Source: Sandaracinus amylolyticus (GTDB taxonomy: Bacteria; Myxococcota_A; Polyangia; Polyangiales; Sandaracinaceae). Taken from it: a stretch of 64,000 nt of DNA. Shown here piece by piece: positions 55,283-62,924 of this stretch (its first letter is position 1; each line of letters starts with the position of its first letter). The translations under genes and the position numbers were made by a program. The stretch is from positions 8,122,001 to 8,186,000 of the forward strand of contig NZ_CP011125.1 in NCBI RefSeq assembly GCF_000737325.1, read 5' to 3'. Under the pieces are notes generated by a model. The model had not been told where the DNA came from, ran no database searches, and saw only the letters and a list, made by a program, of their open reading frames with translations.

Positions 55283-55319
55283 GCAATGCGCATTGCAGAT
55301 CTGAAATTGCAGATCTGAA
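55283..55319. promoter_or_regulatory. palindrome and tandem repeats, candidate upstream activator sites
   Basis: A perfect 14-bp palindrome GCAATGCGCATTGC (55283-55296) is followed, with 5 bp overlap, by two perfect tandem copies of ATTGCAGATCTGAA (55292-55305 and 55306-55319). Each copy contains the 8-bp palindrome CAGATCTG. The repeats lie about 80-107 bp before the start site predicted from the sigma-54-type promoter at 55373, the usual distance for enhancer-binding protein sites. Confidence 0.65.
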
Positions 55320-55372
55320 ATATGCGCGACATCGACGAGACGAAAACCTCGTGATTTCGCGACAGCGACCCC

Positions 55373-55388
55373 TGGCACGAACCTGGCT
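55373..55388 (+). promoter_or_regulatory. sigma-54 (RpoN) promoter candidate
   Basis: TGGCACGAACCTGGCT matches the -24/-12 consensus TGGCACG-N4-TTGCW at 11 of 12 defined positions, with correct spacing of the GG and GC doublets. Transcription would start near 55399 and run into the two hairpins at 55404-55487. Confidence 0.7.
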
Positions 55389-55398
55389 CTAGCGTGAA

Positions 55399-55496
55399 GG
55401 TGCGGCGGCTCGTGAAGGCGTCCCCCCCCAGCCCACGAGCCGCCCACTTTTTCTGGACCGCCCCGCTCTCGAACGAGACGGGGCGGTTCTTTTTTC
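55399..55496 (+). ncRNA. candidate sigma-54-dependent small RNA with C-rich loop
   Basis: The predicted transcript of about 98 bases has two hairpins. Hairpin 1 has a perfect 11-bp stem (GGCGGCTCGTG at 55404-55414, CACGAGCCGCC at 55434-55444) with a 19-base loop that contains eight consecutive C. A short U-rich spacer follows. Hairpin 2 (55457-55487) is a GC-rich stem ending in TTCTTTTTT, a rho-independent terminator. No open reading frame fits. The C-run loop could pair with ribosome-binding sites (GGGGG/GGAGG), as known for C-rich-loop sRNAs of Gram-positive bacteria. Pxr of Myxococcus is a sigma-54-driven sRNA precedent; homology is not claimed. The alternative is that the hairpins only terminate the upstream lipoprotein transcript. 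Confidence 0.6.
55457..55496 (+). terminator. rho-independent terminator
   Basis: The stem ACCGCCCCG-CTCTCG/CGAGA-CGGGGCGGT (one bulged C, 2-base loop) spans 55457-55487 and is followed by TTCTTTTTT. It is the clearest intrinsic terminator in the window and defines the 3' end of the small-RNA candidate. Confidence 0.85.
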
Positions 55497-62043: not shown

Positions 62044-62924
62044 GACAGCCGCGCGTCGCGCGCCTCGGCGACGCCCTCGCGGCGGCGCAGCTCGAAGCCG
62101 ACGAGCGAGAGCGCGAGCCCGAGCCCGGTCTGCAGATCGCTGAGCGTCTCGATGCCGCTCCAGTCGATGCCCATCTCGACGATGGTCTCCGCGGCTGCGT
62201 CCGAGAGCCCCGTCACGATCGGACGCGCGCCCTTGAGCCGCGCGGCGCCGATCGCCTTCGTGAGGTGGTTCGCGACGCTGGTGTCGATCACCGCGACGCC
62301 GGTGACGTCGAGGATCACGACCTGCGCGCGGTGCTCGCGGATACCGGCGAGGAGCGCGCGCAGGATGTCGCGCGCGCGCCGCGTGTCGACGCTGCCGACG
62401 ATGGGCATGACGATGATGCGATCGAGCAGCGGGATGATCGGCGTCGACAGCTCGCGGATCGCGGCCTGCTGCGCGTCGATGACCTCTTGCTGCAGGCGCT
62501 CCTGTGCGGCGAGCGCGTCGTTGCGCTCGCGGATGCGCGCGCCGAGGTGCATGTCGAGGCTGAACGCGACGTGCTCGCTCGCGAGGAGCATCTGCTCGCA
62601 GACAGCGAGCTTCCACTGCTCGTGCGGCACCTCGGGCGCATCGCGCCACGCGAGCTGGACCGCCTGGTACATCACGCGCGCCGCTTCCGACACGCTCGCC
62701 GCTGTCGCCTGCTTCGCCGCGAGCACGCGCGTGACGAGCTCCTCGATGAAGCCGCCCCACTGCGACTCACCGCGCAGCGACGAGACCAGCTGACGGACGG
62801 TCGGCTCCATGAGCTTCTTGATCAGCTCGGGCGGTCGCGGATCGGCGTGCTCGGTTCGACGCAGCGTCGCGTAGTGATCGAGCACGACGTCGATGTGCTC
62901 CTCGATCCACCGATCCACTTCCAT
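62040..62924 (-). CDS. rsbR: RsbR-type stressosome protein
   Basis: The 294-residue protein has an N-terminal all-helical sensor domain (about residues 1-150, with VEHIDVVLDHYATLRRTEH at the start), a linker helix (ERLQQEVIDAQQAAIRELSTPIIPLLDRIIVMPIVGSVDTRRARDI spans about residues 143-190), and a C-terminal STAS domain with DVTGVAVIDTSVANHL, where the phosphorylatable Thr/Ser pair is seen. It is the first gene of the operon rsbR-rsbT-rsbX-rsbS-rsbT. Stress input reaches the RsbT kinases through it. Confidence 0.92.
   Translation of the reverse strand: MEVDRWIEEHIDVVLDHYATLRRTEHADPRPPELIKKLMEPTVRQLVSSLRGESQWGGFIEELVTRVLAAKQATAASVSEAARVMYQAVQLAWRDAPEVPHEQWKLAVCEQMLLASEHVAFSLDMHLGARIRERNDALAAQERLQQEVIDAQQAAIRELSTPIIPLLDRIIVMPIVGSVDTRRARDILRALLAGIREHRAQVVILDVTGVAVIDTSVANHLTKAIGAARLKGARPIVTGLSDAAAETIVEMGIDWSGIETLSDLQTGLGLALSLVGFELRRREGVAEARDARLS

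Follow-up and report, generated by a model that had tools for sequence, protein, structure and literature searches.

A predicted sigma-54-dependent small RNA gene with a C-run hairpin loop in Sandaracinus amylolyticus and its probable kinship to Pxr

The stretch of Sandaracinus amylolyticus DNA analysed here (the window; 64,000 nucleotides, positions 8,122,001-8,186,000 of a genome of 10,327,335 bases in a single contig) almost certainly holds a real small-RNA gene, predicted from comparative evidence. A complete sigma-54-driven sRNA gene, from which transcription is predicted, is well supported at 55399-55495, and it belongs, as one copy, to a large family, apparently new to the literature, whose RNAs carry a C-run in a loop. 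The best explanation of the whole, in which we have considerable confidence, is a trans-acting sRNA that is driven by a PxrR-type activator and sigma-54, pairs through its C-loop with G-rich mRNAs, and is probably related to Pxr of Myxococcus.

The initial annotation had proposed a complete, activator-controlled sRNA gene dependent on sigma-54, and reading the sequence directly showed every listed element in place within 55283-55496 (Table 1). The -24/-12 promoter is TGGCACG-N4-TGGCT, spaced exactly as GG-N10-GC. The C8-loop hairpin has the 11-bp stem that had been described (55404-55414/55434-55444) and a 19-nt apical part carrying the C-run, to which can be added an inner GGC/GCC stem that narrows the loop to 11 nt (GUC8A) and a GUG/CAC pairing that lengthens the outer stem. 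The terminator called strong consists of a stem (55457-55465/55479-55487) followed by T6. Upstream, the 14-bp tandem repeats lie at 55292-55305 and 55306-55319, that is, at -107 to -80, and the palindrome does overlap the first of them; each repeat is in addition near-palindromic itself. The 97-nt RNA is predicted to fold into two hairpins at -60.9 kcal/mol. The fold z-score for the 104-nt stretch 55393-55496 is -7.6, with 0 of 200 shuffles equally stable, and C-runs of length seven or above are uncommon, about one per 77 kb on each strand. The U5 tract after hairpin 1 makes a short form of the RNA possible; a U-run directly 3' of the C-loop hairpin is seen in many relatives.

Table 1. Features of the predicted sRNA locus (window coordinates)
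Feature	Position	Strand	Remarks
Perfect 14-bp palindrome GCAATGCGCATTGC	55283..55296		overlaps activator site 1; TTGC/GCAA half-sites
Candidate PxrR-like activator site 1, TTGCAGATCTGAAA	55293..55306	+	exact TTKCA-N4-TGMAA match
Candidate PxrR-like activator site 2, TTGCAGATCTGAAA	55307..55320	+	centre about -85
Sigma-54 promoter TGGCACGAACCTGGCT	55373..55388	+	GG 55374-55375, GC 55386-55387; identical in G002; kept across family
Predicted sRNA, about 97 nt	55399..55495	+	start inferred from promoter spacing; basis, fold
Hairpin 1	55400..55447	+	outer stem (GUG/CAC + 11 bp), AA bulge, inner GGC/GCC stem; covaries in relatives
C8 run, loop of hairpin 1	55422..55429	+	presumed functional site; C6-C10 in relatives
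U5 3' of hairpin 1	55448..55452	+	possible early 3' end; short form, about 54 nt
Terminator hairpin (55457-55487) and U6 (55490-55495)	55457..55495	+	sequence and fold

The window copy is one of at least three C-loop copies in the host genome. At one mismatch or less, TGCAGATCTGAAA occurs in the 10.3 Mb at the two tandem places, once at 9.82 Mb and nowhere else, and two of the three exact TTKCA-N4-TGMAA sites in 464 kb of host genome are those of the present locus. The copy at 9.82 Mb (L014, 1578-1706), likewise of the sigma-54 type, has the near-match to TGCAGATCTGAAA, then TGGCACGGCCCTCGCTA and a C7 hairpin, followed by a second C-loop hairpin that is the terminator. A third copy lies directly 3' of the gene for the PxrR orthologue (4.12 Mb) and comprises a palindrome and a sigma-54 promoter, CTTTCAGAGTTGAAAG and TGGCACATCACCTGCTG, and a C7 hairpin. 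Assignment of these two copies rests on sites and gene order because the covariance model R3, described below, detects the window copy only in this genome. Elsewhere in the window, TTTCAGCACTGCAA at 62951-62964 matches the PxrR-like palindrome exactly and lies a short way upstream of a minus-strand gene that starts at 62924 and, judged by eye, resembles an RsbR-type regulator.

Beyond the host genome, BLASTN with the element found a single related match, in the genome G002 (96% identity over 136 bases), the other short matches being unrelated sequence. Between G002 and the window, the activator sites (55283-55320, 38/38), the promoter (16/16) and hairpin 1 (55/55) are identical, while identity falls to 84% at the coding 3' end of the upstream gene and to 67% in the downstream spacer.

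More distant relatives were found with covariance models. The model R1, built from the promoter plus hairpin 1 of just two Sandaracinus-type sequences (window and G002), matched in 19 of 317 genomes of the class at E<=0.05; three of its matches (L028, L029, L033) were discarded, having no promoter, C-loop or site. R2 matched in 27 of 377 genomes of the phylum at E<=0.01, several of them with six matches; one model match (L054) was discarded as a family member, and member counts leave out L069, L070 and L073. R3 matched in 21 of 32 genomes of the same order at E<=0.01, with up to 14 matches in one genome of 14,782,125 bases, which we take to be Sorangium cellulosum So0157-2, and in none of four other genomes of the class at E<=0.5. 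Since the search scores just a part of its candidates, all of these match counts are lower bounds, and weak matches near E=0.5 are uncertain. In other genomes the copies are dispersed, several being in tandem: one locus has three tandem copies (L052), another three C-loop hairpins (L021), and two others two copies each (L048, L018). No activator gene was found within 1.5 kb of the Polyangia copies. A C8-loop hairpin also occurs in a genome from another family of the phylum (L060, 1323-1405, minus strand), with a site two mismatches off the pattern, so that the RNA family may reach beyond the present set.

Covariation in the stem is strong. With 13 sequences the score was 0.623 against 0.229 for shuffled alignments, and with 43 sequences it was 0.751 against 0.200; although the alignment was fitted to the model's own structure, slid controls stayed at or below 0.18. 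In the 43 sequences 94.1% of cells pair, and two-sided change is seen at 17 of 17 stem pairs. The stem sequence thus varies freely with pairing retained, and the loop is constant at C6-C10. Because the stem covaries while the C-run is unchanged, the loop is likely to be the working part.

The palindrome pattern TTKCA-N4-TGMAA, which was not included in the covariance models, recurs upstream of family members. Eighty members were gathered from the fetched loci by a rule of promoter, C-run and hairpin, three having been dropped by eye. An exact site precedes 26 of the 80 (0.06 in shuffles), and a site with at most one mismatch precedes 64 of the 80 (shuffled mean 1.4, maximum 5); since the pattern was defined after some of these sequences had been viewed, and the members are related, these statistics are optimistic, but the effect is large. 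The discarded model matches have no such site at one mismatch or less. Site centres concentrate near -74, -84, -96, -107, -118 and -129, a period of about 10.9 bp (R=0.71, 96 sites), as would be expected for an activator bound on one face of the helix. At the window locus the centres of the tandem sites are 14 bp apart, so both cannot sit on the favoured face. Between palindrome and promoter, an IHF-site-like element resembling CAAGTGCTTGA was noticed by eye in M. xanthus (L081) and at L042, L044 and L049-L052. The covarying stem, the conserved C-run loop, the promoter and the phased activator sites together support the gene as the initial annotation had proposed it. That annotation noted neither the resemblance to Pxr nor the existence of at least three copies in the host genome.

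The known RNA that the window RNA most calls to mind is Pxr of Myxococcus (RF01812), whose regulators are PxrR/PxrK (= SpdR/SpdS). Both have a sigma-54 promoter, a terminator, a first hairpin with an inner stem and a C-run loop (C7 in pxr, C8 here) and upstream palindromes of the same pattern, and an ortholog of the NtrC-type activator is encoded in the host genome. They differ in that Pxr has three stem-loops, SL1-SL3, and the window RNA two hairpins, and in that the window family has dispersed copies, the window one not adjoining pxrR. PxrR is essential for Pxr synthesis (PMC10217877), and the SL1 loop is required, a C-to-A change there abolishing function (PMC5684412). As a positive control, pxr of M. 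xanthus AM003 (L081) scored 129 bits with RF01812. Its neighbours, as published, are a regulator of the PxrR type on one side and an NADH dehydrogenase gene on the other, and it has the sigma-54 promoter TGGCACGGCGACTGCT, a C7 loop and the upstream palindromes TTTCACTTATGAAA and TTGCAGTCATGAAA. PxrR orthologues could be told apart from other activators in almost every genome searched; they form a single clade (support 100/100) and have TTLWRKM in common in the recognition-helix region. A C-loop RNA lies directly downstream of PxrR both in M. xanthus and in the host genome, where it is a different copy from that of the window, which lies 4 Mb away from the PxrR orthologue and so is not downstream of pxrR. 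At two other loci, the palindrome TTGCAGATCTGCAA (L094) or TTGCAGATTTGCAA (L098) and a sigma-54-like promoter precede a response-regulator gene 3' of the pxrR orthologue, a layout that suggests that PxrR would also control this neighbour. In an Archangium MAG (L080, L084), pxr paralogues reach 51 and 57 bits with RF01812, under its gathering score of 80.

In the window, RF01812 gave no match even at E<=10, and Rfam as a whole yielded at most chance matches there, whether the threshold was the gathering score or a relaxed one. R3 scored M. xanthus pxr at 13 bits only. The window RNA is therefore not a member of RF01812, hence the name Pxr-like family, and because of these two results homology to Pxr rests on architecture, synteny of the other copy and shared regulation. 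From these, the C-loop family probably shares ancestry with Pxr by common descent. The C-loop RNAs could instead have arisen independently and come under PxrR control later, the likeness to Pxr being convergent. The failure of RF01812 and the weak R3 score would fit such an origin, as would the evolution of C-rich-loop sRNAs elsewhere (GsrN, PMC5869019; sX13, PMC3771888), but Pxr has the promoter type, the design of inner stem and C-run and the activator palindrome all in common with the family, and a C-loop RNA immediately 3' of PxrR in both Myxococcus and the host genome also argues against it; we consider independent origin unlikely.

On the reading that we prefer, the locus would encode a trans-acting sRNA with a length of about 97 nt; should transcription stop at the first U-run, the length would be about 54 nt. 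The orthologue of Myxococcus PxrR (= SpdR), a response regulator of the NtrC type, would bind the palindromes and thereby activate the sigma-54 form of RNA polymerase at the -24/-12 promoter. The RNA belongs to a dispersed set, with no fewer than three copies in this genome and 14 model matches in one of Sorangium size, and would present eight cytosines in a rigid hairpin loop. Several mRNAs could then be bound by the C-run at G-rich stretches, which most likely lie close to the mRNA start, and be altered in translation or stability. Pairing with ribosome-binding sites, which the initial annotation had raised, would be plausible by analogy. GsrN has been shown to pair its C-rich loop with the G-rich leader of an mRNA (PMC5869019), and for sX13 a need for both C-rich loops and G-rich motifs points in the same direction (PMC3771888). 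Runs of five or more G at -25 to +5 are few, 10 in 225 crude gene calls of the 464-kb sample, which counts against this explanation; they are denser there than in neighbouring stretches, but that comparison is biased, starts having been chosen by Shine-Dalgarno score, and the sample is too small to decide targets. An alternative, in which the partner of the loop is a protein or another small RNA instead of mRNA, would agree with the lack of a demonstrated G-run target in the host and with the binding targets of Pxr itself being still unknown (PMC11928866); the precedents of GsrN and sX13 speak against it, and it appears improbable. The window RNA probably works like Pxr, and it may have a developmental role.

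The sigma-54 promoter could also drive an attenuator-bearing leader of the peptidase-like gene downstream, which lies on the same strand and starts at about 55616, 120 nt past the terminator. This is very unlikely: the terminator is strong with one fold dominant, the spacer beyond it is poorly conserved, and copies elsewhere are dispersed, several in tandem. Chance assembly of promoter-like and hairpin-like sequence has a negligible probability: sites resembling a sigma-54 promoter are frequent (49 in 464 kb), but covariation, conservation and the activator sites that members have in common all speak against it. Both readings were dropped on conservation and covariation.

Other RNAs with C-rich loops resemble the window RNA in part. 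GsrN of Caulobacter pairs with G-rich mRNA through the C-rich loop of a hairpin, but its promoter is of the sigma-T type and it belongs to another lineage. In sX13 of Xanthomonas, C-rich loops act on G-rich motifs near translation starts independently of Hfq; unlike the window RNA it has three such loops, and it too is from another lineage. We know of no control of sX13 by sigma-54 or PxrR. The 6C RNA (B11; RF01066) of Actinobacteria likewise has hairpins with C runs in the loop but comes from another phylum, and its Rfam model gave no match in the window.

Pxr is a rare case of a single sRNA gating bacterial multicellular development, a nutrient-dependent brake on fruiting bodies. The origin of pxr has been placed at the base of or within Cystobacterineae (PMC5568312, PMC8538405); the present results indicate that control of the Pxr type probably arose earlier, and occurs more widely, than the literature has it. 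We lean towards a history in which a PxrR-sigma-54 regulon of many C-loop sRNAs was ancestral to Myxococcia and Polyangia and grew to a dozen or more copies in genomes of the Sorangium type, with Pxr as one specialised survivor. If the origin is shared with Pxr, the switch would be far older than a recent Cystobacterineae invention (PMC5568312), some of the largest bacterial genomes would carry it in multi-copy sets, and its regulon would be definable by PxrR palindrome plus sigma-54 promoter and testable in Sorangium and Sandaracinus. The loop as the likely working part would bear on the unsolved question of Pxr targets.
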